This document shows, in pieces, positions 1,697 through 63,356 of a stretch of 64,000 nucleotides of DNA (position 1 is the first letter of the stretch; the number at the start of each line of letters is the position of its first letter). Position numbers and translations under genes: made by a program. The DNA lies in contig NZ_CP113929.1 of the NCBI RefSeq assembly GCF_029392075.1, positions 1,674,001 through 1,738,000 on the forward strand. The letters are read 5' to 3'. The notes beneath the pieces were generated by a model, which worked only from the letters and a program-made list of their open reading frames with translations, ran no database searches and had not been told where the DNA came from. This stretch comes from Bifidobacterium sp. ESL0704 (GTDB lineage Bacteria; Actinomycetota; Actinomycetes; Actinomycetales; Bifidobacteriaceae).

Positions 1697-1890
1697 CGTC
1701 AAAAACATGCATTATAGAACTGCTAAAACGCATGTTTCCAACGTTAGCGTCAAAAACATGCATCCAAGGCAACCGAACTTGCACTTTTGCGACGCTGCCG
1801 TCAGAAAGACGCACATACCGTGTCATAATCTGCACTTTTTCCACGGCAGCGTCGCAAAAGCGCAGATTGGCCGCAAAGCGACGGCAGCCG
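1697..1890. repeat. Palindrome array A: four units, 51-bp period
   Basis: Related units begin with CGTC at 1697, 1748, 1799 and 1850, exactly 51 bp apart. Each of the first three carries an inverted repeat, for example CGTCAAAAACATGCA facing CGCATGTTTCCAACG in the first and TGCACTTTTGCGACG in the second. The fourth is partial. The array fills the gap between the kinase stop and the response regulator. No T-tract follows the hairpins, so they do not look like ordinary intrinsic terminators. Confidence 0.8.
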
Positions 1891-1930
1891 ATAGCGATCT
1901 TTGCCGCCGCGTCTTGCTAACCTTGCAAGT

Positions 1931-2785
1931 ATGAGTGAAACAGCGCCTATCCAAGTCCTTATCGCCGACGATCAGGAGCTGGTGAGGGCGGGTTTCGCCA
2001 TGGTCATCGATTCACAGGACGATATGCAGGTGGTCGGGCAGGCTTCCAACGGCGCCGAAGCGGTGTCGCTGAGCCTTGATCTCCAGCCGGATGTGGTGCT
2101 GATGGATGTGCGCATGCCCGGCACCGACGGCATCGAGGCAACCAGGCTCATCATCGATGCGGAACGCGAGGCAGGCAACGACGTCCCCAAAACGCACGTC
2201 ATCATCTTGACGACCTTCGATCTCGACGAATACGTGATGAGCGCCATCGACGCCGGAGCCTCAGGGTTTCTGTTGAAAGACACCGAACCGGAGACACTGC
2301 TTTCCTCGATCCGAACGGTTTATCAAGGCAACGCCATCATCGCCCCGACAGCCACCAAACGGCTTATCGAGAAGATGGTCGACGGCGAGTTGGGAGCAAC
2401 GCGCGCGGCGGCAAAAGGTCCGAAAATTATCGGCAATGCTCAACACGGCAATGGCGATACCGGCAATACCGGCTCTCTCGGCGGTACGACCGGCAATAAT
2501 CGCGTCAACGGCCGCAACACCGGCAATGTGAACACTCAGGTTTCCGGACAGAACAGCGATTTCGAGCCATCTGCCTACCACGACCCTGCGGTGGACACGC
2601 TGACCGACCGTGAGCGCGAAGTGCTGGTCGAGATCGCGCACGGCCTGTCCAATCAGGAGATCGCCGACAAGCTGTGCATCAGCCTGCCGACCGTCAAGAC
2701 CCACGTCGCCCATATTCTGCAGAAGACCTACTCGCGCGACCGGGTGCAAGCGGTCGTCTTCGCCTATGACAACAAGCTGGTCTAG
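1931..2785 (+). CDS. NarL/LuxR-family response regulator with Asn/Gly-rich linker
   Basis: This 284-residue regulator has a receiver domain with the acidic pair at 13-14, the phosphoacceptor Asp59 in VVLMDVRMPG and Lys116 in FLLKD. A C-terminal LuxR helix-turn-helix follows (LTDREREVLVEIAHGLSNQEIA, then PTVKTHVAHILQK). The ATG at 1931 is preferred over an earlier in-frame start because the receiver fold begins directly after it (MSETAPIQVLIADDQ). Between the two domains is an unusual linker of about 65 residues rich in Gly, Asn and Thr (for example GNGDTGNTGSLGGTTG). It should be phosphorylated by the kinase encoded upstream. The adjacent ABC exporter on the other strand is a plausible target, but that is only positional inference. 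Confidence 0.93.
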   Translation: MSETAPIQVLIADDQELVRAGFAMVIDSQDDMQVVGQASNGAEAVSLSLDLQPDVVLMDVRMPGTDGIEATRLIIDAEREAGNDVPKTHVIILTTFDLDEYVMSAIDAGASGFLLKDTEPETLLSSIRTVYQGNAIIAPTATKRLIEKMVDGELGATRAAAKGPKIIGNAQHGNGDTGNTGSLGGTTGNNRVNGRNTGNVNTQVSGQNSDFEPSAYHDPAVDTLTDREREVLVEIAHGLSNQEIADKLCISLPTVKTHVAHILQKTYSRDRVQAVVFAYDNKLV

Positions 2786-2971
2786 GCACGTCCTTTCTCT
2801 ATCACCAGTGACGACTCCCCTCTCTCGTTCTTCTTCAGACGCGCAAATATATATCCCGGCAAACCAATACGTCATAGGTGCGATGACGCCTCAAACTCAA
2901 CGCATCAACGAAATCGTGAATGTCGGCGTTGTTCATCAGTTTCATCCGACACATTAATTAGTTTGCCACAT

Positions 2972-3018
2972 AAAAGGTCCGGCCGCTTCTCAGAATCGAG
3001 AAACCAACCGGACCTTTT
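2972..3018. terminator. Bidirectional terminator between response regulator and FtsX permease
   Basis: Arms AAAAGGTCCGG and CCGGACCTTTT are perfectly complementary and flanked by A/T runs on both sides. They lie between two convergent genes, so the hairpin can end transcription from either direction. Confidence 0.85.
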
Positions 3019-3059
3019 ATTCAGCTACCGTTTCACTGGATGGTGGGACTTCTGCCAAG

Positions 3060-5702
3060 CTATGCTTCGGCGAGCGCCTCGACCGGCGGGGTCTTCACCG
3101 CACGTCTGGCCGGCAAGATGCTCGAAGCCAACGCAGCCAGGGCGGCGATCAGCAGCACGATGCCGTTGAACTTCCAATCGAAGAGGTAGGCCGTCTTGCC
3201 GTAGAGGCTGAAGACCATGTAGGAACCGAGCCAGCCGAAGGCGGTGCCGAGGATGACGCCGACCACGCCGGAGACCAGCGCGATCAGGAGCGCCTCACAG
3301 GCCAAGGAGCGCCGCAACTGGCCGCGGGTCATGCCGATGGCGCGCAGAGTGGCCGATTCGCGGGTGCGCTCGATCACCGACAGGCTCAGCGTGTTGGCCA
3401 CGCCGATCAGTGCGATGAGCACGGCGACGGCGAGCAGGGCGACCAGCACCCTCATGATGGTGTCGATCTGCGTGTCCCAGGTGACGCGCTCGGAAATCGG
3501 GCCGGAGATGTTGACGCCATCGGTGGATCCCAACGCGTCCTGCACCGCCGCGAACGTATCCGCAACGCTTGACGCGTTCATGTCGAATTTCGTCAAAAGC
3601 ATGTGTCCGTCGCTTTTGACGTTGCTGCCGGTAAACGTCGACTGGTCGACGAAAACGACCATGGAATACATGCTGGTGATACTGCGGAAATCAACTTGCT
3701 TGACCTTCATCGCAGGCAAATCGACATGGTTCTTGGAACCATCCTTGCCGACGTTGTCGAAGGTAACGGAGTTGTTGGCAAAGTTGAGCTTCTTGCCGGT
3801 CTGGGCGTTGTAAAGCGGAGCAAGGACGGTGCCCGGGGCGATGGTGCCGGAAGAGATATCCGTACGCAGCACCTTCTGCAGGGCCTGCTTGTCGTTGACC
3901 GCGACCAGCAATACGCTGAAATCGTGATCAGCGCCCTCGTTCTTGATGTTCGCCGTGGCGGTGGGCGCGTAGAACGTGTCCGAAATGCCCTTGATCTTGG
4001 CGACCTTGTCGGCGGTGTGCTGGCTCAGTCCATTGCCTTCCGCCGCCATGTCGACGCTGTAGTGGGCGTCGAGCGTGGAATCCATGGTCTGTTTGCCGCA
4101 GGCCGCGCCGGTGGCGATGGTCGAAACCAAGGTGACGCCGATCAGCAGGGCGACGCCGGTGGCGGCGACGCGACGCGGGTTCTTCTGGATATTGCCGTCG
4201 GCTATCTTGGCGGACGGGCCGACGTGGGCGACCAGCGCACCGATGCCGCGCATCAGCACCGGCAGCCAGAACGTGGCGGTGACGGCCAGACCGATGAAGA
4301 GCAGAGCACAGCCGCCCATGGCGGAGAGCAACGCAAATTCATACTCGGTATCGTTGCCGTTGCGGGCTGTGTGGGTCAATACCTCAGGAATTTTGCTGGC
4401 ACCGAGCGCGCAACAGACGACACCGACAACGATCATCAAGGTACCGAGCACGCCGCGCACCCTTCCGGCCTTGCGGGTATCGGTGACCTCGATCGGGCGC
4501 AGCGCCTCAAGCGGGGTCACGGCCGTGGCGGAGCGCGCGGAGCCGATGGAGGCGAGCACCGTCATGATAATGCCGAAGGCGAGCGGCACTACGATGACCG
4601 GCCATGAGATGATGAGTTTCATCGTGGCACCCATATCTCCCAGCGCCACGCCGAACTTGCTCATCGCGCCCATCAATCCGATGGCCACGACCACGCCGAG
4701 CGCTGAGGCAATCAGGCCCAAAGTGCCGGCCTCAAAAAGCACGGAACGGTAAAGCTGCCCCTTCTTTGCGCCGATGGTGCGCAGCAGGGCAAGCGTGCGG
4801 CGACGCTGGGCGATCAGCACCTGGAAGGTGTTGGCGATGACCAAGGCGGCCACGAACATGGCAAGGATGCCGAAGACCAGAAGGAAGATCTTCACCGGCG
4901 AGCTTCCGTTGGAACTCAGCTGCTTCAGCTCCTCGTCGCCCAGATGCTGACGGGTATCGACGGCGAACTTCTTGCCGAGGACCTGCTTGGCTTGCGGAAT
5001 GGCCGTCGAAGCCTTGGACGAATCCACATTGAACAGCAGACCATTGGAGGGAACGTCATTGAAGGAATCGACATGGTAGAGATCCGTCAGCACCTGTGGA
5101 GAGACCAGCGTCACTCCACCATACGTGGTGTAGCTGCCGCTCTCGTCTCTGGTAAGGCCCACCAAGGTCGCCTTGGCGCTAGGCGCATTGCTGGCGGAAG
5201 TGGAAAGGGTGAGCTTGATGGTGTCGCCCGTTTTCAGATGCAGCTTGTCGGCCATCTTCTCGGGTATGGCGGCCTCACGGTCTTTTGTCGGGCTGTGGCC
5301 GTTGACCACCTTGACCGGCTGGAGCTTGTCATCACTGGAACCCAGAGCGTACATAGTGGTGGTCGCCGTATTGCCCTTTTTGATATGTCCGTCGCCGTAG
5401 ACCAACGGCTGCACGGATTTGACGCCATCGACCTTATCGACCTCGTCCCTTTTGAAGGTCTTGACGGTGAGCGGCGCGTCATCGCTGTAGGTGCTGCTGT
5501 CGCCGCCGTTCGTGTCTTTGAGCATCGCCACGTAGTCGGCCTGCATGAAACGCGAGGTCAGCTGCGTGCGCAGCGAGTCGTCCATCGCGTTGCCGAACAG
5601 GAAGGTCGCGGCGATGAAGGCGGTGCCGATCAGGATGGCGATGCCGGCGGGAATGAGCATCTTCCCGTTCTTTTTCATAAGTTTAAGTGTTACTGAGAAC
5701 AT
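3060..5702 (-). CDS. ABC transporter permease, two FtsX domains (MacB/LolC-like)
   Basis: This 880-residue membrane protein has an N-terminal transmembrane helix (residues about 14-37), a large extracytoplasmic region, and a first FtsX core near 270-400 (segment VFGILAMFVAALVIANTFQV). A second set of helices follows near 425-560, with a second extracytoplasmic region and a C-terminal FtsX core (VALLAVAVLIALIGVANTLS). Duplicated FtsX permeases of this size work with a separate ATPase to move lipids, lipoproteins or antimicrobial peptides. An AAAGGA ribosome site precedes the ATG. The ATPase gene lies 197 bp upstream on the same strand, so the two form an exporter. Substrate cannot be inferred from sequence. 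Confidence 0.93.
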   Translation of the reverse strand: MFSVTLKLMKKNGKMLIPAGIAILIGTAFIAATFLFGNAMDDSLRTQLTSRFMQADYVAMLKDTNGGDSSTYSDDAPLTVKTFKRDEVDKVDGVKSVQPLVYGDGHIKKGNTATTTMYALGSSDDKLQPVKVVNGHSPTKDREAAIPEKMADKLHLKTGDTIKLTLSTSASNAPSAKATLVGLTRDESGSYTTYGGVTLVSPQVLTDLYHVDSFNDVPSNGLLFNVDSSKASTAIPQAKQVLGKKFAVDTRQHLGDEELKQLSSNGSSPVKIFLLVFGILAMFVAALVIANTFQVLIAQRRRTLALLRTIGAKKGQLYRSVLFEAGTLGLIASALGVVVAIGLMGAMSKFGVALGDMGATMKLIISWPVIVVPLAFGIIMTVLASIGSARSATAVTPLEALRPIEVTDTRKAGRVRGVLGTLMIVVGVVCCALGASKIPEVLTHTARNGNDTEYEFALLSAMGGCALLFIGLAVTATFWLPVLMRGIGALVAHVGPSAKIADGNIQKNPRRVAATGVALLIGVTLVSTIATGAACGKQTMDSTLDAHYSVDMAAEGNGLSQHTADKVAKIKGISDTFYAPTATANIKNEGADHDFSVLLVAVNDKQALQKVLRTDISSGTIAPGTVLAPLYNAQTGKKLNFANNSVTFDNVGKDGSKNHVDLPAMKVKQVDFRSITSMYSMVVFVDQSTFTGSNVKSDGHMLLTKFDMNASSVADTFAAVQDALGSTDGVNISGPISERVTWDTQIDTIMRVLVALLAVAVLIALIGVANTLSLSVIERTRESATLRAIGMTRGQLRRSLACEALLIALVSGVVGVILGTAFGWLGSYMVFSLYGKTAYLFDWKFNGIVLLIAALAALASSILPARRAVKTPPVEALAEA

Positions 5703-5899
5703 CTTTGGTTCCTTTTGCTTTCGTTCTACAAGTTCGTTTGCCGGTATTTTTAGAAGAGGACGTTCGCTGCGTTTCGATTGTGGTTTAATCGTTGCTTGAA
5801 TATGTTGCGGCCATGATTACCGCCATTTGACGAGGACGTCATGATATCGAAACGAATCCAAAAGACCATACAAAACTCAACGACGCCAACTCTCCGGAT

Positions 5900-7081
5900 T
5901 CACCTGGCGACTTGCGCGTGCTTCGGCTTGCCATCCATCAACTGGCTCATCGTGGGAGCCGCACCCTGCCGGGCGGCGCGTTCGCTTTCCTCCATCAGCA
6001 ACTCGCTCATGTGCTCGGCGGTCGGGTGCTCAACGTCGGCGACGATGCGACCGTCGGCAAAGACGATGGCGCGGTCGGCATAGGAGGCGGCCACCGCGTC
6101 ATGGGTGACCATGACCACGGTCTGCCCGAACTCGCGCACGCTGCGCTTGAGGAAGCTCAGGACCTCGGCGCTGGAAACAGAATCGAGGTTGCCGGTCGGT
6201 TCGTCGGCGAAGACCACCTGCGGCTTGGAGATCAGCGCACGGGCGATTGCGACACGCTGCTGCTGACCGCCGGAAAGCTCGTTCGGACGGTGCTTAAGAC
6301 GTTGTGTCAAACCGAGGGTTTCGACCAACGTGTCGAACCATTTCCTGTCGACCTTGTCACCGGCCAGCGTCAGGGGCATCACGATGTTCTGCTCAGCGGT
6401 GAACATCGGCAACAGGTTGAAGCTTTGGAAGATGAAGCCGATCTCGTTGCGACGCAGCATGGTGAGCTGGTTGTCGTTCATCTTGGTGATGTCTTGGCCG
6501 CCTAAGATGACGCGACCGCTGGTCACCGAATCAAGGCCTGCGAGCGTGTGCATCATCGTCGATTTGCCGGAACCGGAGGGGCCCATGATGGCGGTGAACT
6601 TGCCCTTTTCGAAACCGACGTTGACATTGCGCAACGCGTGCACCACGTTCTCGCCCTTGCCGTAGTCCTTGACCAGGTCGATGGCTTCGACCGCGAATTC
6701 CTTGCGCTGCTGGGGCTGAGCCTGCATCTGCTGCACCGACTGCCGCGGCTGTGTTTGGGATTGCGCCGCAGACGGCAGCGGAGACTGCACAGGTACCTGC
6801 TGGAATTGCTGCTGCGGCTGTGACTGCGCCTGCTGCTGATACCGCGGAGGATAAGACTGCGAGCCCTGCTGTGGGAACTGCTGAGGCTGGAAAGATGTTG
6901 ACTGTTGCGGATGCTGCACGGTTTGCGGCGCAATGAAAGAGGGCGCCGCAGCGCCGTTATTGGCGTCGGCTCCGAGATTGCCCGCGTTCGTGTTCACGTT
7001 GCCATTGCCGCCCGCGTTCGAGTTGATAATTCCGCGAAAATCGTTGCCGGCATTGCCGCCGTAGAAGTTGTTGGGGTTCAT
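5900..7081 (-). CDS. ABC transporter ATPase (LolD/MacB type) with long Asn/Gln-rich N-terminus
   Basis: The ATPase domain occupies about residues 128-393. It has Walker [10 protein letters not shown], signature [15 protein letters not shown], Walker B VVFADEPTGNLD and the switch His in VMVTHD. This is the FtsX-partner class, and the permease gene is directly downstream. The first ~125 residues are unlike the family: an Asn/Gly-rich part (NAGGNGNVNTNAGNLG) and then a Gln/Pro-rich part (QQFPQQGSQSYPPRYQQQ). Family members normally begin within a few residues of the domain start, so this is a disordered extension of unknown role. It is in frame and uses normal codons. A start just before the ATPase domain (near KEFAVEAIDLVK) cannot be excluded, but no clear ATG exists there. 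Confidence 0.92.
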   Translation of the reverse strand: MNPNNFYGGNAGNDFRGIINSNAGGNGNVNTNAGNLGADANNGAAAPSFIAPQTVQHPQQSTSFQPQQFPQQGSQSYPPRYQQQAQSQPQQQFQQVPVQSPLPSAAQSQTQPRQSVQQMQAQPQQRKEFAVEAIDLVKDYGKGENVVHALRNVNVGFEKGKFTAIMGPSGSGKSTMMHTLAGLDSVTSGRVILGGQDITKMNDNQLTMLRRNEIGFIFQSFNLLPMFTAEQNIVMPLTLAGDKVDRKWFDTLVETLGLTQRLKHRPNELSGGQQQRVAIARALISKPQVVFADEPTGNLDSVSSAEVLSFLKRSVREFGQTVVMVTHDAVAASYADRAIVFADGRIVADVEHPTAEHMSELLMEESERAARQGAAPTMSQLMDGKPKHAQVAR

Positions 7082-7190
7082 GTGGACTCCTTTGTTGAGG
7101 TCACTGCTTGTCTGATACCTCAGATTCTAAAAGAATCCGCCCGCATCCCCCATCGTGCGCAGGAATGAATTTTTCATAGCCCCGCGCAAT

Positions 7191-7400
7191 ACCAGAAAAT
7201 CCATACCTCATCCTTGAGAATGATTTCCCCCCCTCCGAATTGGCCAAACCCACATTCGTGCCGGAAAACCGCACATAACCGGCAAGCAAAGTCCGTTCAC
7301 CAGCAATAACATACGAAACGACGAACATAGTGCTGGAAAACCGCACATAACAGACCCGCAGATGCCGTTTACCAGCAGCGAGGTAGTTTGCAGAAAGTAA
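7191..7400. repeat. Palindrome array B: two clear units plus one diverged, ~72-bp period
   Basis: GCCGGAAAACCGCACATAAC begins at 7260 and GCTGGAAAACCGCACATAAC at 7332, 72 bp apart. A weaker copy (ACCAGAAAATCC) lies near 7191. Each unit closes with a partner arm such as CCGTTTACCAGC, giving an imperfect inverted repeat. The array occupies most of the gap between metY and the ABC ATPase gene. The same arm pair occurs near 37135. Confidence 0.75.
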
Positions 7401-7497
7401 TCCACCAGACTGCAAAAACAAACCCGCCTACCGGGCACAAATCGAAAACTATTCGGAATGTGGGCGGCAGACGGGCCTTGTTGATACGTACGCGAAA

Positions 7498-8820
7498 TTA
7501 TTTGGCCAAGCCGGAGGCACGAACCGCCTCGAAGCCACCCCTCAGATCGTCGAGGATGTCATCGATGTATTCGGTGCCGATCGACAGGCGAATGGTGCCT
7601 GGGTGGATGCCTTGGCTCTCCAGCTCCTCGCGCGTCTCCTGGGCGTGGGTGGTGGAGGCCGGATGGACCACAAGGCTCTTGACGTCGGCGACATTGGCCA
7701 GCAGGCTGAACAGATGCAGATTGTTGATGAACACGCGTGCCGCGTCCTTGCCGCCTTTGATGTCGAAGGTGAAGATCGAGCCGGCTCCGTTCGGGAAGTA
7801 CTTCTCGTAGAGCTCATGGTCGATGCGGCCGGGGATCGAAGGATGCGAGACAGATTCGACCTCGGGGACGGTGCGCAGGTATTCGACCACTTTGAGCGCG
7901 TTCTGAACGTGACGCTCGACGCGCAGCGACAGCGTCTCGGTGCCCTGCAGCAACAGCCACGCGGCGAACGGGCTGATGCAGGCGCCGGTGTCGCGCAGGA
8001 AGATGGCGCGGGCGCGGGTGACGAAGGCCGTGGAGCCCAGCGCCTCGTAGAAGTTCATGCCGTGATAGGAGGGGTCCGGCTCGGTAAGTGTCGGGAATTT
8101 GCCCGGCACCTCGGCCCAGTTGAAGTGGCCGCCCTCGACGATCAGGCCGCCCAAGGTCGTGCCATGTCCGCCGATGAACTTGGTAGCCGATTCCACCACG
8201 ATGTCCGCGCCATGCTCGAGTGGGCGGAAGAGATACGGGGTGGCGAAGGTGTTGTCGACGAAGACGGGAAGGTGATGGGCATGCGCGATCTTGGAGATGG
8301 CCTCGAAATCAGGCAGGTCGGCGTTTGGGTTGCCGAAGGTCTCGAAGTAGACGAGCTTCGTGTTGTCCTGAATTGCGTCTTCGAAGTTCTGCGGGTCGGC
8401 CGGGTCGACGAAGGTGGTGGTGATGCCGTCGCGCGGCAGGGTGTGGCGCATCAGGTTGAAGGTGCCGCCGTAGATGTGCGAGGAGGAGACGATGTGATCG
8501 CCGGTCTGCGTGATGTTGCGCAGCGCCGCTTCGACCGCAGCCGCCCCGCTGGCCAGTGCAAGCGCCGCAGTGCCGCCTTCGAGCGCGGCCATGCGACGTT
8601 CGAAGACATCCTCGGTCGAATTGGTCAGGCGCCCATAGATATTGCCCGGATCCTCAAGCGCGAAGCGCGCCTCGGCATGGTCGAAATCATGGAAAACGTA
8701 GCTGGTGGTGGCGTAGATCGGCACCGCGCGCGCATCGGTGGCGGGGTCGGCCTCCTCCTGGCCTACATGCAGCTGCAGTGTCTCGAAATGATACTTCTTC
8801 GGTGCGGTCTCGTCGCTCAT
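7498..8820 (-). CDS. metY: O-acetylhomoserine aminocarboxypropyltransferase (sulfhydrylase)
   Basis: This 440-residue PLP enzyme belongs to the Cys/Met metabolism family and matches the usual MetY length. The PLP lysine lies in [15 protein letters not shown], and the N-terminal region contains [22 protein letters not shown] and [14 protein letters not shown] typical of O-acetylhomoserine sulfhydrylases. It makes homocysteine (or cysteine from O-acetylserine) directly from sulfide, the sulfur-assimilation entry expected in bifidobacteria. A strong AAAGGAG lies five bases before the ATG. It stands alone, divergent from pdxY. No S-box riboswitch was recognised in its 5' region. Confidence 0.95.
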
Positions 8821-9046
8821 AACGGCTCCTTTGATATACGCGAATGCACAATATGGTTATCCCAAGTTTGAGCGTAAACCGGCAGAACACGCACGGCAAG
8901 CGCGACGCTATCCCGGTAATCTATAACGCCTTGAAACTCTTAGGAATTCCGCCATTTTCATGCGATAAATAAACCAAAACCGACTACTGCCAATCGTGGA
9001 TGGCCATGCCCTACCCCACCCCGCACCTGCCGCAGACACCATCGAT

Positions 9047-9233
9047 GCCAAATTCTCAGTTTGGCAATCATCTTGGTAGCACCAAGACCCTCATTTTTCG
9101 CAGAATTGATACCAAATCCTCCGGATTCGGGTATCTTGGTGCACCAAGACCACCTATTTTTCATGAAATCGATAGCAATTTACCGATTTCGGGCGACTTG
9201 GCGGCACCAAGATACCTCGATTCAGGAAAATTG
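9047..9233. repeat. Palindrome array C: CTTGGT(GC)ACCAAG at 63/62-bp spacing
   Basis: Near-palindromes CTTGGTAGCACCAAG, CTTGGTGCACCAAG and CTTGGCGGCACCAAG start at 9072, 9135 and 9197. The intervening ~48 bp are also related (TTTTTC, then GAATTGATA or AAATCGATA). A truncated first unit is visible from about 9047 (GATGCCAAATTCTC). The array sits in the 636-bp divergent region between metY and pdxY. The same architecture, with identical 63 and 62 bp spacing, recurs at 29437. Confidence 0.9.
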
Positions 9234-9390
9234 AGCCATCATCGCGCAAAACCTAACAACGAAAGCACACGGCGAATGACACAAAGCCAGGATTCCCTTA
9301 TTCTTGCCCGATGAACTTCTCCCCGGTTCGTCATCTGGCGGACAGAGCAAGCGGGTCTGTCCTCGGCACGGCTAGAGTCGTTACCAGCGA

Positions 9391-9416
9391 CGTCGCGGGC
9401 AATCCCGCCCGCGACG
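9391..9416 (+). promoter_or_regulatory. GC-rich hairpin in the pdxY leader
   Basis: Perfect 10-bp arms CGTCGCGGGC and GCCCGCGACG enclose a six-base loop, 40 bp before the pdxY start codon. No T-tract follows, so it is not a standard terminator. It could be a leader hairpin affecting translation or mRNA stability. The role is inference. Confidence 0.55.
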
Positions 9417-9456
9417 GACGCCGATATTATTCATAGACTTTCTGAAAGGTCATGAA

Positions 9457-29436: not shown

Positions 29437-29576
29437 GTTGGTGCCACCAAGTTACCCTTTTTATTAAGAATCGAGTCGCAATCTTCAAAAAACCAGCGTC
29501 TTGGTGCACCAAGATGGCCTTTAATCAGCAAATCAAGACCTAATCTTCAAAAAATGGGGTTCTTGGTGTCACCAAG
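29437..29576. repeat. Palindrome array H: CTTGGTGCACCAAG at 63/62-bp spacing
   Basis: GTTGGTGCCACCAAG (29437), CTTGGTGCACCAAG (29500) and CTTGGTGTCACCAAG (29562) are separated by 63 and 62 bp, exactly as in array C at 9072. The ~48-bp stretches between them are related to each other (AATCTTCAAAAAA twice) and to those of array C. The array lies between tig and the ClC gene. No other feature was seen in this 416-bp gap except the tig terminator. Confidence 0.9.
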
Positions 29577-29637: not shown

Positions 29638-29673
29638 ATGTGGGGTGTGGAAGAATTCTTCCACACCCCACAT
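29638..29673 (-). terminator. tig terminator, perfect 36-bp palindrome
   Basis: Arms ATGTGGGGTGTGGAAGAA and TTCTTCCACACCCCACAT are fully complementary with no loop in DNA. On the minus strand the stem is followed by TTTCATATTTTC, 28 bases after the tig stop. Confidence 0.85.
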
Positions 29674-37102: not shown

Positions 37103-37134
37103 TTACTGTACAACAGAACAACAGTCAAACCGGT

Positions 37135-37240
37135 GCTGGAAATCTTGCCCTACCCGGTTTAAACGAACGTTTACCAGCAACAGCACTATTGGAAACCTTC
37201 CCAAGGGACAAGCTAATCTTTCGCCGGCAACACATCAGTG
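37135..37240. repeat. Palindrome array W: two units of the GCTGGAAA/TTTACCAGC family
   Basis: GCTGGAAATC at 37135 is paired with CGTTTACCAGC at about 37168-37178. A second related unit starts ATTGGAAACC at 37188 and closes near CTTTCGCCGGC, giving a 53-bp period. The arms match those of array B (7260, 7332). It lies in the divergent gap between the toxin-antitoxin operon and the membrane protein gene. Confidence 0.65.
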
Positions 37241-43074: not shown

Positions 43075-43213
43075 ATTCCAATCTGCGCATTTGCGTTGAG
43101 AAGCAGATTTTCGACCTCGATTTTCTGCTTTTGCACGCAACAATCATCGTGCTTGCGTTGAAAAGCAGATTCCGACCCACATTTTTCTGCTTTTCAACGC
43201 ATTGTTGATTCCA
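43075..43213. repeat. Palindrome array Y: two units, 62-bp period
   Basis: Units begin TTGCGTTGAGAAGCAGA at 43091 and TTGCGTTGAAAAGCAGA at 43153, 62 bp apart. Each closes with a complementary arm (TCTGCTTTTGCACGCAA, TCTGCTTTTCAACGCA). A partial earlier arm (TCTGCGCATTTGCG) precedes them. As RNA each unit would form a strong hairpin between the binding-protein and permease cistrons. Confidence 0.85.
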
Positions 43214-55304: not shown

Positions 55305-55363
55305 TTTGCATCTTCTCCTTCGAAGAAGGTTATCGACGAACAAACGCTGTATCGTCAATAAAA

Positions 55364-55379
55364 ATGTTTACGTTATCAT
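55364..55379. promoter_or_regulatory. Candidate LacI-type operator in the divergent promoter region
   Basis: ATGTTTACGTTATCAT is a CG-centred near-palindrome (12 of 16 positions symmetrical) typical of LacI-family operators. It lies 60 bp before the permease start and about 190 bp before the regulator start. Binding by the adjacent regulator is inferred. Confidence 0.5.
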
Positions 55380-55567
55380 TATAGCATTTATTCTCGTCAG
55401 TAAAAACATCGCCCGTGTCAACATGATATTTTCCTATTATTAGAAGCTTTTGATAGCTACCATATGGCATTCTGAAACGTCTAGTTATGAAAATCAGGCT
55501 AAAAATGGTATCGTCACCAATATAAGTATGAACCGTCAGCGCAACGATGATATACGAGGTGAATTCA

Positions 55568-56578
55568 ATGCCAACCAACCGGGTAGTGTCGATGCAGGAT
55601 GTCGCCCAAGAGGCAGGGGTTTCGCCGCAGACGGTCTCACGAGTGGCCAATCACAGCAGTGCCGTAAAACCGGCCACACGCGTACGCGTCGAAGAGGCCA
55701 TGCAGAAACTCGGCTATCGTCCGAATTACGCGGCACGAGCCTTGAAGCACGGGCATTTCAACAATATCGGCGTCGTACTTTTCAATATGACCTCGTACGG
55801 CAACGCCCGCATTCTCAACGGCATCACCAACGCGGCGCTCGACAACGATTATGCCGTCACGCTCCATCAGATCCGACATGACAACGTCCACACGCTTCAG
55901 GCGGCGATCAACCGAATGAAGCAGCTGCCCGTCGACGGGGTGATCGTCATCCTGGAGAAGAATCTTCCGGACGTCAACTCATACGTGCCCCTGCCGGACC
56001 TGCCGGTGGTCCTCATCAGCGAAGAACCCTCGGACCACTGCCCGACCGTCGACGCGGACCAATACGGATGCTCGATCGCCATCGTCGACTATCTGCTCAG
56101 TCACGGTCATTCCACCGTCTATCACATCGCCGGGCCGACTTCCTCACGAGCGGCGCGAAGCCGCGAACTCGGGTGGAGAGACGCCCTTGAACAGGTCGGA
56201 GCCCCCATAGAGCAGACCTATATCGGCGATTGGAACGCCGACAGCGGCTATCAGGCGGGATTGGCGTTGGCGAACAACCCGAAGTGCACCGCCATTTACG
56301 CGGCGAACGACCAGATGGCCTACGGCGTGATCCAGGCCTATGAACGCATGGGCAAAAGCGTGCCGCGCGACGTCAGCATCGTCGGCGTCGACGATTCGCT
56401 GGTCGGCCTCGTGCCCCGCCTCAATCTGACGACGATGCGAATGCCGTTCGATCAGATCGGACGCACCGCCTTCGACATGGTCAAATGGCAATGCAACGGC
56501 CAACACGTGCCCGCGGGCGTGAAAACCGTCATCCCCACCCAACTCATTGAGCGCAAATCCGTGCGCTCGATTGGCTGA
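55568..56578 (+). CDS. LacI-family transcriptional regulator (GosR-like by context)
   Basis: This 336-residue regulator has a LacI helix-turn-helix (SMQDVAQEAGVSPQTVSRVAN and YRPNYAARALKHG) and a periplasmic-binding-protein-like effector domain (NIGVVLFNM, VVLISEEPSDHCPTVDAD, AIYAANDQMAYGVIQ). The ATG at 55568 follows GAGG by nine bases; a longer frame to 55547 is less likely. It is divergent from the permease-GH42-binding protein genes and most likely represses them until a galacto-oligosaccharide or product binds. Confidence 0.93.
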   Translation: MPTNRVVSMQDVAQEAGVSPQTVSRVANHSSAVKPATRVRVEEAMQKLGYRPNYAARALKHGHFNNIGVVLFNMTSYGNARILNGITNAALDNDYAVTLHQIRHDNVHTLQAAINRMKQLPVDGVIVILEKNLPDVNSYVPLPDLPVVLISEEPSDHCPTVDADQYGCSIAIVDYLLSHGHSTVYHIAGPTSSRAARSRELGWRDALEQVGAPIEQTYIGDWNADSGYQAGLALANNPKCTAIYAANDQMAYGVIQAYERMGKSVPRDVSIVGVDDSLVGLVPRLNLTTMRMPFDQIGRTAFDMVKWQCNGQHVPAGVKTVIPTQLIERKSVRSIG

Positions 56579-56648
56579 ACGCTTCCTCTATAGGTTTGGA
56601 TTTGGACTGAGAGTTGGGAGGCTCTGGCTGGCGCCCGCATCGTCGCTT

Positions 56649-56684
56649 GCTCTCGGTTGAGCTCAGAGCAGCTTAACCGAGAGC
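56649..56684. terminator. Bidirectional hairpin overlapping the pseudouridine synthase stop
   Basis: Arms GCTCTCGGTT and AACCGAGAGC lie between the convergent LacI-type gene and the pseudouridine synthase gene. The minus-strand stop codon (56673) is inside the loop side of the hairpin. Confidence 0.55.
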
Positions 56685-57410
56685 GATCTGCGAGGTGAAC
56701 GTACGCAGCTCGCAACTGACCGGATCGACGAAACTCATCGAACGCGCCACCAGCTGCAGCGGGTCGGAGAAGTCGGCGTAATCCGGCTCGACGATTTCCG
56801 GATACAGGTCGTCGCCTTTGATCGGCAGGCCAAGCGAATTCATATGAACGCGCAGCTGGTGCGTTTTGCCGGTTTTTGGGTGAAGCACATAACGGCGATA
56901 ACCCTGGGCCGCGATTTCCCCATCTGTCTGCGCCAGCTCGATAACGGTTTCGGCATTAACCGTGCCCGGGATTTCGTAAGCCTGCAAACGGCCACGGTGC
57001 TTGACAATATGCGAACGTCGTTTCAACGGGAAAACCGACGGCGGATCCATGCGCTCGATCGTCCCGGTGCAAGGCCTGATGATAGGTAGCGCCGGCGCGA
57101 GGCATTCATAGGTCTTTTGAACCCGATGCTCCTGAAACAGCATCTGGTAGGCCCCGCGCAGCTCAGGGTTGCGCACGAACAGCACCACCCCCGCGGTCTG
57201 GCGGTCGAGCCGATGCGCCGGCGTGATCTGAGATTCCCCAAACCGTTCGCGCAAGCGGACAAGCGCCGTCTGCCGGTACCACATCCCCCGCGGTGTGGTC
57301 GCGAGAAAATGCGGCTTGTCGACCACGATGATGTCGTTGTCCTCGTACAGAATCGTCAGCTCGAACGGCACTTCCGGCTCATCGAGCACAAACCGATGCT
57401 TGGATTGCAA
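56673..57410 (-). CDS. RluA-family pseudouridine synthase
   Basis: This 245-residue protein has the catalytic Asp motif ITPAHRLDRQTAGVVLFVRN, the fold start LTILYEDNDIIVVDKPHFLATTP and the C-terminal HPKTGKTHQLRVHMNSLGLP. It isomerises uridine in rRNA or tRNA; the exact site is unclear. No S4 domain is present. It appears to start at TTG seven bases after the glmS stop, so its translation probably depends on glmS. Confidence 0.92.
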   Translation of the reverse strand: MQSKHRFVLDEPEVPFELTILYEDNDIIVVDKPHFLATTPRGMWYRQTALVRLRERFGESQITPAHRLDRQTAGVVLFVRNPELRGAYQMLFQEHRVQKTYECLAPALPIIRPCTGTIERMDPPSVFPLKRRSHIVKHRGRLQAYEIPGTVNAETVIELAQTDGEIAAQGYRRYVLHPKTGKTHQLRVHMNSLGLPIKGDDLYPEIVEPDYADFSDPLQLVARSMSFVDPVSCELRTFTSQIALG

Positions 57411-57416
57411 ATTCGT

Positions 57417-59306
57417 CTACTCGACAGTGACGGACTTGGCGAGGTTGCGCGGCTTGTCGACGTCGTAGCCTTTGAGCCTTGCCACATCGAGTGCGAACAG
57501 CTGCAACGGCACCACGTCGACCAACGGGCTCAACAAAGTCGCGCATTCGGGGCGCCAGAAGACGATATCCGCGTATTTCTCGGCATCGGGGTCACCCACC
57601 TCGGCCACGGCGATGGTGAAGGCACCACGCGCCTTGACCTCTTCAATGGAGGAAATGACCTTGTTGTGCAACACGTTGCGTCCACGCGAAGACGGGACGA
57701 TGACGACAACCGGCTCACCGGGCTCGACCAGTGCGATCGGTCCGTGCTTGAGTTCGCCTGCGGCGAAACCTTCGGTGAAGGTATAGGCGATTTCCTTGAG
57801 TTTGAGCGCACCTTCCAGCGCCACCGGATAGCCGACGTGGCGGCCGAGGAAGAGGAAGGATTTGGCGTTCAGCAGCTTTTTCGCGGCATCATCGACAGTG
57901 CCGGCCTGGTTGTCGAGCACCCACTGGATCTTTGCGGGCATGGCCTTGAGCTGGTCCAGAATCTGATGGATTTCGTCGCGGTAGAGCGTGTTCTTGATCT
58001 GGGCGAAATACAACCCAAGCAGATATGCCGCCACGATCTGAGCGACAAAGGCCTTGGTCGAAGCCACCGCGATCTCGGGACCGGCGTGCGTATAGAGCAC
58101 CGCATCGGATTCGCGCGGAATCGTGGAACCTTGTGTATTGCATATTGCCAGCACGCGCGAACCCTGCTCGCGAGCGTGGCGCAACGCCATCAGCGTATCC
58201 ATGGTCTCGCCGGACTGCGAAATGGCGACCACCAGCGTACGTGGGGTCAGGATCGGGTCGCGGTAGCGGAATTCATGCGCCAACTCGACCTCGACGGGAA
58301 TGCGCACCCAATGCTCGATGGCGTATTTGGCCACCATTCCTGCATAACTGGCGGTGCCACAGGCTACGACGATGATCTTGTCGATTTGTTTGAAGGCTTC
58401 CGGATCGACGTGAAGCTCATCGAGTTTGATCGCTCCGGATTCATTGAAACGGCCAAGCAACGTATTGCGCACCGCGGCGGGATCCTCATGGATTTCCTTG
58501 TCCATGAATGAGTCCCAGCCGCCTTTTTCGGAGGCACTGGCGTCCCAGTCTACGGTAAAACGCTTGGAATCGGTGATTGGGTTGCCGTCGAAATCAGTGA
58601 CGGTGACGCTATCGCCGGAAATGCAGACCGCCTGGTCCTGGTCGAGTTCCATCGCCTCTTTGGTGTAGGCGACGAACGCGGCGACGTCCGATCCCAGGAA
58701 GTTCTCGCCATCGCCGAGGCCGATGACCAGCGGGGAATCATGGCGGGCGCCGACGACAATTTCGGGTTGGCGGACGTCAACGGCCAGAATGGTAAAAGCC
58801 CCGGAAAGCATACGTGCCATCCGTCGCAACGCCTCGAACAGGTCGGGCTTGCCGGTTTCCTTGATGATGATATTGGCGATCTTGCCCAGCAGCTTCGCGG
58901 CCACTTCGGTATCGGTGGCGGAGAGGAAGGTATAGCCTTCGGCCTGCAGGTCGAGCCGCAGTTTTTCGGCGTTCTCGATGATGCCGTTATGGATGATGGC
59001 GATCTTGCCGTCCTGGCTGGTATGGGGGTGCGCGTTGACGTCGCTCGGCTCGCCGTTGGTGGCCCAACGGGTGTGACCGATGCCCACGGTCGCAGCCGGC
59101 ATAGGACTGCGTTCGAGGTCAGAGGCGAGATTGGTCAGACGACCGGATTTCTTGCGCACGGCTACGGCTTCCATACCGGGTGCCGCCAACGCGACGCCGG
59201 CGGAGTCATATCCGCGGTACTCAAGACGTTTGAGCCCCTGCATGCACACTTCCAACGGTTTCCCGCAAGCGGTCTCATTTCCTGCAAATCCAACAATTCC
59301 ACACAT
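57417..59306 (-). CDS. glmS: Glutamine-fructose-6-phosphate aminotransferase
   Basis: This 629-residue enzyme starts MCGIVGFAGNETACGK, so Cys2 is the N-terminal nucleophile after Met removal. The glutaminase domain (to about residue 240: YDSAGVALA, GHTRWATNGEPSDVNAHP) is followed by two SIS isomerase domains (ACGTASYAGMVAKYAIE, SQSGETMDTLMALRHA, FLFLGRHVGYPVALEGALKLKE). It makes glucosamine 6-phosphate for the cell wall. The region upstream contains the composite hairpin element at 59423-59656, so its leader may carry one of those hairpins. No glmS ribozyme was recognised. Confidence 0.97.
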   Translation of the reverse strand: MCGIVGFAGNETACGKPLEVCMQGLKRLEYRGYDSAGVALAAPGMEAVAVRKKSGRLTNLASDLERSPMPAATVGIGHTRWATNGEPSDVNAHPHTSQDGKIAIIHNGIIENAEKLRLDLQAEGYTFLSATDTEVAAKLLGKIANIIIKETGKPDLFEALRRMARMLSGAFTILAVDVRQPEIVVGARHDSPLVIGLGDGENFLGSDVAAFVAYTKEAMELDQDQAVCISGDSVTVTDFDGNPITDSKRFTVDWDASASEKGGWDSFMDKEIHEDPAAVRNTLLGRFNESGAIKLDELHVDPEAFKQIDKIIVVACGTASYAGMVAKYAIEHWVRIPVEVELAHEFRYRDPILTPRTLVVAISQSGETMDTLMALRHAREQGSRVLAICNTQGSTIPRESDAVLYTHAGPEIAVASTKAFVAQIVAAYLLGLYFAQIKNTLYRDEIHQILDQLKAMPAKIQWVLDNQAGTVDDAAKKLLNAKSFLFLGRHVGYPVALEGALKLKEIAYTFTEGFAAGELKHGPIALVEPGEPVVVIVPSSRGRNVLHNKVISSIEEVKARGAFTIAVAEVGDPDAEKYADIVFWRPECATLLSPLVDVVPLQLFALDVARLKGYDVDKPRNLAKSVTVE

Positions 59307-59422
59307 AACGTTCCAGTCTACGTGATGCCCCTTAAACGCGACAGTACCCCCGCGAAAGTTTCACCATTCCCAATATTCCCAGATCGTCTTCAGCATTTAC
59401 TCATCAAAGAGACTAACTGACG

Positions 59423-59656
59423 TACTTGGGGCTGGGATATACAATGTCCGACACGCTCCGGGCCGCTCAGGCCAAGTCTTTACGGTCTGACATCGCATAT
59501 CCCAGCCCCAAGCACTCAACCTAAATCTAATTAGAAAGCATAATTATTTATCAATCTTAATCGTTGAGTGGTTGGGCGGAGATATGCAATGGTCGGGCGT
59601 AAGACACGGCCGAGCGGCCAAGGAGCGTCCCGAACATTGTATATCTCCGCCCAACC
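59423..59656. repeat. Composite element: two related large hairpins in inverted orientation around an AT-rich core
   Basis: Hairpin A (59423-59514) has 24-bp arms CTTGGGGCTGGGATATACAA.../...CATATCCCAGCCCCAAG. Hairpin B (59570-59656) has 22-bp arms GGTTGGGCGGAGATATGCAA.../...TATCTCCGCCCAACC. The loop of A resembles the reverse complement of the loop of B (CGCTCC, then GGCCGCTC, then GGCC and GTCTT). Between them CACTCAAC (59513-59520) faces GTTGAGTG (59563-59570) around 42 AT-rich bases. The stem sequences differ but stay paired. Neither hairpin has a T-tract. It lies between the amino-acid importer operon and glmS. Confidence 0.85.
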
Positions 59657-59690
59657 GCGTCAGTCAGAAAACCACTGGAATCGAAATCAC

Positions 59691-60545
59691 TCAGAGGACG
59701 TGGCTGAGGAAATCCTTGAAACGGGGCTCTTGCGGATTGTCGATGATTTCGGGACCGCCATGCTCTACGACCACGCCGCCGTCCATAAAGACGACCTGGT
59801 CGGCCACTTCGCGGGCGAATCCGATTTCATGGGTGACCACAATCATGGTCATGCCGGCGTCGGCCAACGAACGCATCACCGTGAGCACCTCGCCCACCAG
59901 CTCCGGGTCAAGTGCCGAAGTCGGCTCGTCGAAAAGCATGATGTCAGGGTGCATCGCCAAAGCGCGCGCGATGGCGACACGCTGCTGCTGGCCACCCGAA
60001 AGCTGCATCGGATAATAATCCGCGCGATCGGCCATACCGACACGTTCCAGCTCAGCCATCGCCTCCTGCTTCGCCTTAGCCTTCGGGACCTTGGCGACAT
60101 GCACCGGAGCATCCATCACGTTTTCGATCACCGTGCGATGCGGGAAAAGGTTGAAGCGCTGGAACACCATTCCGAGCTTTTCGCGTTGCTTGGCGATCTC
60201 CTTGTCGTTCAGTGTTTGTAGTTCGTCTTTGCCGCCGTGCTCGACGTGCTTATAGCCGATGAGCTCGCCGTCGACCTCGATGCTGCCGCCGGTCAGGGTT
60301 TCAAGTTGGTTGATCAATCTCAGGAACGTGGATTTTCCGGAACCGGAAGGCCCCAGAATCACCGTCACCGTGCCCGGCATCACCGTCATGTCGATGCCTT
60401 TGAGCACGTGCAGACTGCCGAACGCCTTGTGCACCTGCGTGGCTTTGACGGCAGGCACCACGGCCTTGCCTACCTCCGTTTTTGCAGTACTTCCGGCTTG
60501 CTGCCGGTCCGTCATGATTTGCGTTTTCGTTTCATTCGTCGCCAT
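59691..60545 (-). CDS. Polar amino-acid ABC importer ATPase (GlnQ-like)
   Basis: This 284-residue ATPase has Walker [18 protein letters not shown], signature [15 protein letters not shown], Walker [19 protein letters not shown] and VVTHEIGFA. The first ~35 residues are a polar extension. The ATG at 60545 is chosen because GGAG lies nine bases upstream; earlier in-frame starts reach the preceding gene. It is the last gene of the importer operon and pairs with the permease just upstream. Confidence 0.93.
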
Positions 60546-60568
60546 ATCGTTCATCTCCATCTCGTGCC

Positions 60569-61555
60569 TCAAGCGTTCAACCCAAGGAAGGTCGTCTCGC
60601 CTTCATTGCCTTCAGCGACCTTGGCCGCCGGCTTCTTGCCTTCGACATCACCGTTGGCAGTGTTGTCACTCGAGCTTTCGTTGAATCCCTTGCCGAAGTA
60701 CCGCTCGATCCGTGCCTGCACCACCATTAGGATGGAAGTGATGATCAGATACCAGAAGCAGGCCACCATCAACAACGGAATCGGCTTGTAGATGCGATGG
60801 GCGATGGCGTCGGAGGCGAACTGGAGTTCAAGGCTGAACGGCACTGCCGACACCAATGAAGTGGTCTTCAACATGCTAATGACCTCGTTGCCGGTGGGCG
60901 GCACGATGATACGCATGGCCTGCGGCAGAATCACCCGGCGCATGATCATGGTCCGTGGCATGCCGAGCGCCTCTGCGGCCTCGCTCTGACCGGGGTCGAC
61001 GGCTTCAAGGCCGGCGCGCACGATCTCGGCCAGATACGCGGATTCGTTCAACGCCAATCCCAGCATCGCCGCAAGGAATCCGGGGGCGATGAGGTTGTTG
61101 AGCTGTTCAGTCTTCATCTGCCAGAAATTGATCTTGGTGAAGGGAATGCCGAGCGAAAGGGTCGGAATCAGTACCGCGAACAACCCCCAGAACACCAGCT
61201 GCGTGTAGATAGGCGTGCCACGGAAGAACCAGATCCAGAACCAGCTGACCCCGCGCAACACCGGATTGACGGACTTGCGCATCACTGCCAGCAGCACGGC
61301 CAGCACGATGGCGATGAGCATGGAGGTGACCGTCAGAATCAGCGTCCAGCCGATGCCGTTCAGGACATGCTCGTTGAACAGGTACTTCCAGACGGTCGGC
61401 CACTCGAAGTTGCCGTTGGTAATCATGCCATGCACCAACAGCACCGCAAGGAACGCGACGATGATACCTGCAATCAGGGAGCCGGGACGATGGACCGGCC
61501 TTGCATGGATCCGATTGGGGATGTCAAGCCCATCCGATTCATTGTTATGTACCAT
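60569..61555 (-). CDS. Polar amino-acid ABC importer permease
   Basis: The 328-residue permease has the HisMQ-type core: [39 protein letters not shown], and the EAA loop [20 protein letters not shown]. It has an N-terminal helix [19 protein letters not shown] and a C-terminal Asp/Gly-rich tail. GAAGG precedes the ATG at 61555. A single permease usually homodimerises in this family. Confidence 0.93.
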
Positions 61556-61915
61556 AATGCACCTTCCTGTAGCGTCAGGCCCGTTCGATGACATCCGACG
61601 CCGATTTGATATTCAACAACACATACAACCTACTTGCATATTATACGAAACTACACATAATTGCCTTTTATCTCAGATACAGGGCCAAACCGCATCCGTT
61701 CATACTGCCAAACAGTGATTTGTCCGTCAAAAGCCGCCGACGGCAAACTGGGCTGCCGTCCAATGGCAAACACCGGATTCTCACGGCCAGCGCAATGAGT
61801 TGTTCAAGACATGCCTCGCCATCGCATTCTCAAAGATGCACAAGAGAGACAAAATCCGACCGACATCCGTACAAGCGACGTCGATCGGACTGATTCAGCG
61901 TCATGCAGCGTCGAC
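61556..61915. other. Gap between binding protein and permease of the amino-acid importer
   Basis: The 360-bp gap contains a hairpin with arms GACGGCA and TGCCGTC (61739-61760), which may reduce read-through from the binding-protein gene. It also holds TTGCATATTATAC (61634-61646), nearly the same as the promoter element before the binding-protein gene (62895). No gene is evident in either strand. Confidence 0.6.
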
Positions 61916-62845
61916 TTACGCCGCAAAATCGTTGATCTTGGATTCCTTGATGGCTCCGTCTTCATTGCCCCAGGACTTGAGAATCTTCATATAGGTGCCA
62001 TCATCCATCAGCTTCTGGATGGCGGCCTGCACTGCCTTGGCCGTCTGCGTATCGCCCGCTTTGAGCACCACGGCCTCGGGAGTCGTGTCGAAGGTCTTGC
62101 CCAACAGTTCGAGCTTATCGCCGTTCTGCTTGACCGCATAGCCAGAGACCGGCGAATCGGCACAGAACGCATCGGCCTTGCCGGTGGCGACGTTGGTGGC
62201 CACAATCGTCTGATCCTTCATCGACTGGACATCGATGGCCTTCTTGCCGGAGGCGGTGCACTGGGAATTGAGTTTTTTGACCGTGGTCTCCTGGACGGTG
62301 CCGGTCAGCACCGCAACGCTGCTGCCGCAGAGATTGTCGGTAGAGAGCTTCTTCGGATTGCCCTTCTGGACGACGAAGGAGGAACCGACGTTGAGGAACG
62401 AAACGAACTCGCCGGCTCCCTTACGGTCGGGAGTGACGGTGAATCCGGACATGCCGGCATCGTACTTCGAGCCGATGCCCGGCAGGATGGAATCGAACTC
62501 GGCGGTGGTCGCCTCGAACTTCAACCCGAAAATGGCCGAAATCGACTTGGCCAGATCCATTTCATAGCCGATCGGGGTCTTGCCGTCCTTGTCGAGGAAT
62601 TCGGCAGGTGCATAATCCGGAGAAACTCCGATGGTGAATTTGCCGTCCTTCTTGATGGAATCAGGCAACATGGCGGCGATCTTGGCATCCTTCTTGACCG
62701 AGCTGGTATTGGAGGCGCTGCTCTTCGGGGTCGCGCTCTGGTCGCTTTCGTCGGTGGTACCGCAAGCAGCGACACTGGCCAGCATCGCAGTGGCGCAGAT
62801 CCCTGCCAACACGACCTTTACTTTTTGGGAAATATGCAATGACAT
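61916..62845 (-). CDS. Polar amino-acid ABC importer binding lipoprotein
   Basis: This 309-residue family 3 binding protein has lipobox LASVAAC (Cys28) and an Asp/Ser-rich start of the mature protein. It shows the family signature GKFTIGVSPDYAPAEFLDKD with GYEMDLAKSISAIFGLK. GAGAGGA precedes the ATG at 62845; a longer frame to 62869 lacks a ribosome site. Upstream is a promoter inside an inverted repeat (62895-62927). Ligands of this class include glutamine, glutamate and cystine. Confidence 0.93.
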   Translation of the reverse strand: MSLHISQKVKVVLAGICATAMLASVAACGTTDESDQSATPKSSASNTSSVKKDAKIAAMLPDSIKKDGKFTIGVSPDYAPAEFLDKDGKTPIGYEMDLAKSISAIFGLKFEATTAEFDSILPGIGSKYDAGMSGFTVTPDRKGAGEFVSFLNVGSSFVVQKGNPKKLSTDNLCGSSVAVLTGTVQETTVKKLNSQCTASGKKAIDVQSMKDQTIVATNVATGKADAFCADSPVSGYAVKQNGDKLELLGKTFDTTPEAVVLKAGDTQTAKAVQAAIQKLMDDGTYMKILKSWGNEDGAIKESKINDFAA

Positions 62846-62894
62846 CTTGAGTCCTCTCTGGGGCGGCACCGGATGTCCCGCTCGCTTTGACTAA

Positions 62895-62927
62895 TTGCAT
62901 AATATACTAACATACGTATTTATGCAA
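62895..62927 (-). promoter_or_regulatory. Promoter within an inverted repeat before the amino-acid binding-protein gene
   Basis: On the minus strand TTGCAT and TATTAT are 17 bases apart. The same bases form the inverted repeat TTGCATAA...TTATGCAA with ATACGTAT in the centre. A repressor bound here would block both promoter elements. A related half site lies before the permease gene. Confidence 0.65.
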
Positions 62928-63027
62928 GATATCCATCTCAATAGATGGACAACGATGTCTGCAGCCAGTTCATCAGACACCCTGCCCGCCCTATCGCAAG
63001 CAGCAAGCCCGATATAAGGCGTGTAAG

Positions 63028-63356
63028 CGTCTCAAATCCTCCACTATCTAAAGTTACTGGAGCAAACACGACGCAAACAACCAACAAAGCGTCACAAAAG
63101 CTCCAACAACAACGCTTAACGGAGGAAACACGACGGAAAAACGAGACCCCACGTCACAAAAGCTCCAACAACCACGCTTAACGGAGCAAACACGACGGAA
63201 AAACGAGACCCCACGTCACAAAAGCTCCAACAACCACAACTACCGGAGCAAACACGACGCAAACCACAACAAAAGCGTCGCAAAACCTCCAGCTACAAAA
63301 ATCCCGGAGGAAACGCGACGCCGACTGCCACCCAGGCGTCGCAATTCCTCCGGGAT
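63028..63356. repeat. Palindrome array Z: five full units and one partial, 62-bp period
   Basis: Units start with GGAG at 63059, 63121, 63183, 63245 and 63306 (62, 62, 62, 61 bp). Each has the form GGAGCAAACACGACG, a spacer, then CGTCACAAAAGCTCC, followed by about 16 linking bases. A lone second arm (GCGTCTCAAATCCTCC) at 63028 marks a partial earlier unit. Units 2 and 3 are nearly identical. The last unit is the strongest hairpin, with about 20 paired bases extended by ATCCC/GGGAT, and lies just after the smpB stop. The array fills most of the gap between the binding-protein gene and smpB. Confidence 0.92.

Follow-up and report, generated by a model that had tools for sequence, protein, structure and literature searches.

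Intergenic arrays of dyad-symmetric, whole-turn repeats in Bifidobacterium sp. ESL0704 as probable sites of intrinsically bent DNA

A stretch of 64,000 nucleotides from Bifidobacterium sp. ESL0704 (contig NZ_CP113929.1, positions 1,674,001 to 1,738,000 of the forward strand; the whole stretch is referred to here as the window) contains six intergenic arrays of tandem inverted repeats. Related arrays are dispersed over the chromosome, their units measure close to 5, 6 or 7 helical turns, and families with different boxes carry one A/T pattern that is in phase with the DNA helix. The arrays are probably intrinsically bent, dyad-symmetric docking or wrapping sites.

Arrays were called as intergenic self-similarity at periods of 18-130 bp with resampled sequence as the control, and genes were called by a simple codon-usage finder; the array caller misses weak arrays. 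The sample of this genome comprised the window and 20 evenly spaced 20-kb stretches (464 kb), which contain 243 intergenic regions with a total length of 97 kb. A repeat of any period was found in 46 of these regions, compared with 1.2 in the resampled controls, and chance can be set aside as their origin. Periods of 51, 61-63 or 71-72 bp were present in 25 regions, from which about 130 arrays per genome are estimated by extrapolation. The arrays of this genome and of three relatives were grouped by eye, using hand-written motifs, into ten families and an unassigned group. All ten families are present in this genome, where the initial annotation had distinguished three; half a box is common to some of them, so the families are not all unrelated.

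The unit lengths are strongly clustered. Lengths of 50-52, 61-63 or 71-73 bp were observed in 51 of the 57 intergenic repeats of 45-80 bp found in this genome (464 kb) and in the genomes G029 and G055 (480 kb each) (25/26, 12/15 and 14/16, in that order), and 25 of 27 repeats in the evenly spaced sample of this genome had the clustered periods. The periods near 5, 6 and 7 turns that had been proposed for the window are supported by the clusters at 51, 61-63 and 72 bp. A genus-wide survey was carried out with the C/H pattern, in which two CTTGGYGCRCCAAG-family palindromes were allowed any gap of 34-64 bp in 112 genomes of the genus and the reversed pattern served as the control. The survey identified 129 pairs in six of the 112 genomes (22 in this genome and 24, 37, 33, 12 and 1 in the others) and none with the reversed pattern. 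The six genomes are this one (G000), G029, G055, G096, G050 and G094; the closely related genomes G015, G004, G002, G058 and G048 had no such pair. Among the matches listed, all gaps were 46-49 bp and most were 48 bp, which corresponds to a unit of 62 bp. The spacing was exactly 62 bp in 35 of 41 non-redundant pairs in the stretches analyzed, and the remainder measured 60, 61, 61, 63, 63 and 125 bp.

The A/T pattern was analyzed in a set of 73 arrays with repeats of 51, 61-63 and 70-72 bp. Eight of them could be placed in no family, and one 51-bp array from genome G096 is a doubtful member of the Y group. Repeats of other periods in the contiguous stretches were used as controls. Two 41-bp repeats in the sample of this genome, which look different from the others, were omitted. 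The A/T maximum of the 73 arrays lies at 10.3 bp with a power of 2.05, compared with 0.29 in other intergenic DNA, and permutation of the positions within the units of the same arrays reduced the power at 10.3 bp to 0.39 (largest of 40 permutations, 0.50). When the ten families and the unassigned group were analyzed one by one, every A/T maximum fell within 10.15-10.35 bp, and the observed power was unmatched by 200 permutations in 10 of the 11 groups. Related arrays are not independent, so that per-array P values are overstated and the independent unit is at most the family. Among the controls, 41 intergenic repeats of other periods gave a power of 0.35 at 10.3 bp versus 1.77 for 52 arrays, while the signal was on average absent both from the 13 repeats found in 28 named Bifidobacteriaceae loci and from the 50 found in 52 loci of other actinobacteria. 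Three repeats of 71-73 bp without the 10.3-bp signal, which were not counted, occur in B. thermophilum, B. gallicum and B. myosotis (L108:4719-5647, L126:8006-8127 and L114:1595-1747). All seven families of 61-62 bp (CH, Z, Y, M, F2, F3 and T) are rich in A/T at a distance of 14-16 bp from the dyad, with less sharply defined enrichment around 4-7 and 23-26 bp. The clustered periods and the agreement of all 11 groups support the earlier proposals that the palindromes of each array face the same side of the helix and that the arrays have a role in DNA architecture.

The window had been thought to contain seven arrays, of which A, B, C, H, Y and Z are real and W is a single inverted pair. The A/T signal of each of the six lies above the 99th percentile of 158 other intergenic stretches of 150 nt. 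The sites are as follows.

Array A, 1697..1867, no strand: 51-bp units with TGCRYTTTT..GACG-type boxes, flanked by two plus-strand genes; A/T spectral maximum at 10.15 bp, power 2.93.
Array B, 7258..7377, no strand: two 72-bp units with a TGCTGGWAAAC-type box, flanked by two minus-strand genes; A/T maximum at 10.45 bp, power 2.29.
Array C, 9072..9211, no strand: three CTTGGTGCACCAAG-type palindromes (9072-9086, 9135-9148 and 9197-9211, the outer two with one additional central base), flanked by divergent genes; A/T maximum at 10.50 bp, power 1.71.
Array H, 29437..29576, no strand: three CTTGGTG(N)CACCAAG-type palindromes (about 29437-29451, 29500-29513 and 29562-29576); A/T maximum at 10.20 bp, power 1.91.
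Array Y, 43092..43201, no strand: four 16-bp boxes, TGCGTTGARAAGCAGA and its inverse alternating (starts 43092, 43124, 43154 and 43186), with a 62-bp unit and perfect 16-bp arms; A/T maximum at 10.25 bp, power 1.94.
Array Z, 63027..63351, no strand: 30/32-bp box alternation; A/T maximum at 10.30 bp, power 3.72.
Site W, 37134..37179, no strand: one pair of inverted B-type boxes, TGCTGGAAA...TTTACCAGCA, that does not form an array; no direct repeat was found and the 10.3-bp A/T signal is absent.

Two other repeats were observed in the window. A perfect, loopless 36-bp palindrome (29638-29673, two 18-nt arms) with a terminator-like appearance lies directly 3' of the trigger-factor gene, and a 24-bp tandem repeat (141-264, 5.2 copies, 98% match) is located within the open reading frame at 15-1652.

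Pairing and A-tract character were tested in the C/H family. Base identity between the C/H palindromes is low, yet the positions +14.5..+17.5 and +24.5..+26.5 from the dyad are 96-100% A/T, and G/C is found at 9.5-12.5. Pure A/T tetramers occupy 134 of 162 tract sides, and the TpA step occurs in 17% of the C/H A/T tetramers compared with 60% of 5,788 background A/T tetramers, a low frequency that indicates A-tracts of either polarity. The tracts at ±16 in 81 non-redundant units are complementary across the dyad in 127 of 287 A/T pairs, which is about the expectation from composition. The linkers of different sites are as alike as column-shuffled ones (0.462 versus 0.465 ± 0.009). Covariation of the arms, a check proposed with the initial annotation, was observed in the C/H box, which varies symmetrically at its variable position (0.80 observed versus 0.54 expected), but not in the inner tracts, which behave as composition predicts. 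The C/H arrays appear to be a feature of double-stranded DNA shape and not a hairpin.

A processed hairpin RNA had also been suggested, and this explanation, like that of tandem terminators, now seems most improbable. It accords with the perfect 16-bp arms in Y and with the location of some arrays found in this genome only: their flanking genes converge, and at the same place a relative carries an apparent bidirectional terminator, as judged by eye. However, the ±16 counts contradict it for C/H, the arms are separated by 0-1 base in C/H and by 14-16 nt in Z and Y under one common unit length, and the single match in the window to an Rfam family at the gathering threshold is a tRNA. Arrays in this setting lie at 1899309, 1846747 and 1776829 of this chromosome; close relatives carry a short, terminator-like bidirectional sequence there (by eye), and a terminator-like hairpin has also been retained at 1846747 in this genome.

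Array sites are strongly shared between species (Fisher P = 3e-11 and 2e-12 in the comparisons of this genome with G029 and G055). The C site is occupied in G029, G055 and, by position, G096, and the H site is occupied in all three. The outcome that would have spoken against the initial annotation, arrays missing at other intergenic sites and from close relatives, was not borne out in G029, G055 and G096. The sequence that fills a shared site is unrelated in 6 of 21 cases (2/10 in G029 and 4/11 in G055, best ungapped score ≤10), and three C/H arrays have been retained, linkers included, in relatives. Two-unit arrays that the caller missed were recognized by eye at the Z site in G029 and in G015. 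At four shared sites (1757373, 1918562 and 1911182 of this chromosome and the Z site), the boxes of the species appear by eye to differ mainly in one half. In the joined 80-kb stretch of genome G004, the Z site between the orthologues of SBP and smpB (63359-67033) contains about 3.7 kb of additional sequence.

Ordinary regulation, in which a separate dimeric repressor binds each family as a cooperative operator array and the phasing lets neighbouring dimers touch, is the less likely but still appreciable alternative. The conserved C/H boxes with unconserved linkers, the symmetric covariation within the box and the three arrays retained in relatives are all compatible with operators, as is the presence of divergent genes at 3 of 12 C/H sites in addition to array C of the window. 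The neighbouring genes point the other way. Of 23 flanking proteins found at C/H sites, 20 were scanned and 18 had a Pfam match at E ≤ 1e-8; they include transporters, a MarR-family protein, thymidylate synthase, RimM, tRNA m1G methyltransferase, DapB, an isocitrate/isopropylmalate dehydrogenase family protein and adenylosuccinate synthetase. These neighbours share no common pathway and form no evident regulon, in agreement, as far as C/H is concerned, with the earlier view that the arrays are not simple operators. The 23 Z sites are mostly flanked by co-directional genes (16), with six convergent pairs and one divergent pair. Operators specific to each family would also leave the common unit length and A/T phase of families with different boxes, and the unrelated sequences at shared sites, without a ready account.

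The arrays resemble known repetitive palindromes of bacteria. Bacterial interspersed mosaic elements (BIMEs) are described as intergenic, numerous in a genome and composed of regularly spaced, alternately oriented boxes (PMC2817692), and several families of repetitive extragenic palindromes (REPs) or REPINs may occur in one genome, as described in PMC6006769. The arrays reported here are likewise intergenic, numerous, regularly spaced and alternately oriented, as in the 30/32-bp alternation of Z. They may be selfish palindromes of this kind that are moved as single-strand hairpins, an explanation considered improbable. Chromosome-wide searches, self-matches included, gave 40 matches for Z, 20 for Y, 25 for H and 21 for B; these families are dispersed with alternating boxes, and their sites may be empty or refilled in relatives. 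Merging reduced the 40 Z matches to 23 sites and the 21 B matches to 15, with two secondary opposite-strand Z matches (1737301 and 2054088) inside listed sites omitted. Alike loop pairs are slightly in excess between Z sites, and array Z has an imperfect short direct repeat on either side; both observations are also in line with such movement. The direct repeat (CAACGATG...GCAGCC at 62948-62970 and 63365-63377, read by eye) may be a trace of insertion or due to chance.

Several differences from BIMEs and REPs argue against movement as hairpins. No match to the Y1/RAYT transposase (PF01797) was found in this genome (G000), and a match was present in 7 of the 112 genus genomes. The C/H boxes are inverted repeats, yet the inner tracts at ±16 are not complementary beyond what composition predicts, and no sign of copying is seen in the C/H linkers. 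A clean target duplication was absent from the other empty sites read by eye. The single E. coli BIME-2 measured (sucB-sucC) has an 89-90 bp repeat without a 10.3-bp peak, whereas the arrays combine whole-turn units with the 10.3-bp phase. For the self-propagating repeat suggested earlier the evidence is divided: the dispersal of the families and the differences in sites between species accord with it, but the C/H linkers and the search for the transposase do not. The search for viral spread found no exact match to three array patterns in viral contigs.

The strand bias of the arrays bears on the same question. Taking the main match per site, the leading strand is the GT-rich one at all 23 Z sites, a point in favour of hairpin movement, and at 14 of 15 B sites, with the origin placed near 0 and the terminus near 1.25 Mb by GC skew. 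At five Z sites the GT-rich strand is leading although both flanking genes run in the opposite direction. When the degenerate positions of the motif were left open, both strands matched about equally (69/65 and 41/42). The GT content of the leading strand is 0.591 in 45 arrays of this genome, compared with 0.544 across 158 further intergenic regions in the contiguous stretch, and it is higher in the array than in its own flanks in 16 of 24 cases. A function in replication polarity was rejected, since the units are dyad-symmetric and the GT excess is graded; the excess looks like a compositional trend and not a directional signal. A TGC-N4-AA box lexicon compiled by eye (5.2-fold enrichment at gap 4) was likewise dropped as evidence because the neighbouring gaps 3 and 5 were nearly as enriched (3.9 and 4.0) and the families may be related.

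It is very unlikely that the arrays are wrapping sites of gyrase, functional analogues of BIME-2. Gyrase is present in all bacteria, and C/H pairs were found in 6 of the 112 genus genomes. The arrays are intergenic and, like the E. coli gyrase motif, long, degenerate and helically phased in AT and GC. That motif is thought to be read as shape, and BIME-2 is enriched in gyrase cleavage sites (PMC6379681). The motif, however, has flanks phased at 10.75 bp around one cleavage centre according to the same source (PMC6379681), whereas the arrays are continuous, with a dyad per unit and family-specific boxes, and in 60 non-C/H arrays the maximum lies at 10.25 bp with a power of 0.43 at 10.75 bp.

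Several observations weigh against intrinsically bent docking or wrapping sites. Bending was judged from sequence alone. The set was chosen by period, and a period of 51, 62 or 72 bp leaves about four harmonics between 7 and 14 bp; with so few harmonics the position of the maximum in a single family is weak evidence, and the weight is carried by the amplitude relative to permuted units and the agreement of the 11 groups. In group M, 1 of 200 permutations reached the observed power. The dyad-relative profiles of small families are noisy, with extra peaks in those of 3-5 arrays, and the profiles of the 51-bp families are different. Unit length is less uniform in the B family, with units of 72, 70-71 and 61-62 bp in this genome and 65 bp in G096. 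Among the ±25 C/H tracts, 155 of 228 pairs are complementary, as composition predicts, although such counts are also compatible with pairing. No called counterpart was present at the orthologous site for 11 of 21 arrays of this genome in G029 and 10 of 21 in G055, and no array of these periods was called in G004 or G015, for which an 80-kb syntenic stretch each was analyzed.

No candidate binding protein was found among the families sought. Lrp/AsnC (PF01037) had no match in this genome and a match in 11 of 14 control genomes. The archaeal-type histone PF00808, the histone family searched, had none in this genome and a match in 3 of 14 control genomes. HU (PF00216) had one match each in G000, G029, G055, G096, G050 and G094; it was matched in 110 of the 112 genus genomes, nearly always once, with no paralogue expansion in array-bearing genomes. 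An all-against-all comparison of 563 proteins from part of this genome revealed no obvious paralogous DNA-binding candidate in the 25 largest groups, and the largest groups resemble ATP-binding and transport proteins.

Intrinsically bent sites remain the probable reading, and their organization may be envisaged as follows. The bent double-stranded DNA would be built from tandem units of 5, 6 or 7 helical turns (~51, 61-62 and 72 bp), each with dyad symmetry. In the 61-62 bp families, the A/T-rich tracts at a distance of about 15-16 bp from the dyad, and the less sharply placed ones around 5 and 24-26 bp, would turn narrow minor grooves to the same side at every helical turn. The partner may be one dyad-symmetric protein or a small set of related proteins that differ in their base-specific boxes; it would dock once per unit, and the bent DNA would curve or wrap around it. 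The unit length and tract phase common to families with different boxes suggest one kind of partner. The resulting one-sided, multivalent nucleoprotein sites at fixed intergenic gaps could fix local topology or insulate neighbouring genes; packaging is another option.

Archaeal histone or nucleosome-positioning DNA, like the arrays, alternates between A/T and G/C at about 10 bp around a dyad, and the unit of ~60 bp with dyads near 31 bp is similar to the spacing of archaeal histones. The arrays differ from it in that no PF00808 match was found in this genome, their boxes are base-specific and they occupy particular intergenic sites only. They share the A/T helical phase in all groups, and the A-tract character in C/H, with phased A-tract curved DNA, but are divided into separate tandem units, each of fixed length and with its own dyad, and their boxes are specific to the family. 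Periodic A-tracts have been described in many prokaryotes with an unclear role (PMC3940949).

No paper describing such arrays was identified in the open-access literature, judged by title and the start of the abstract. To our knowledge, no bacterium has been described in which repeated intergenic DNA encodes wrapping or bending in the manner of nucleosome-positioning sequences. We tentatively propose, as a possibility still open to considerable doubt, that a clade near bee and bumble-bee strains evolved a nucleosome-like DNA code of about a hundred tandem, dyad-centred, whole-turn A-tract superhelices per genome, onto which a candidate wrapping protein specific to the clade would be loaded at fixed places between genes. 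Selection would then act on shape and position, and the filling sequence, sometimes half a box, could be swapped. The arrays could be used as protein baits, with unit-permuted versions as controls. Intergenic palindrome arrays can evidently be abundant where the Y1/RAYT transposase is not found, and ten families, several with unrelated boxes, that have one A/T pattern and kept sites would make the role of bacterial phased A-tracts testable.

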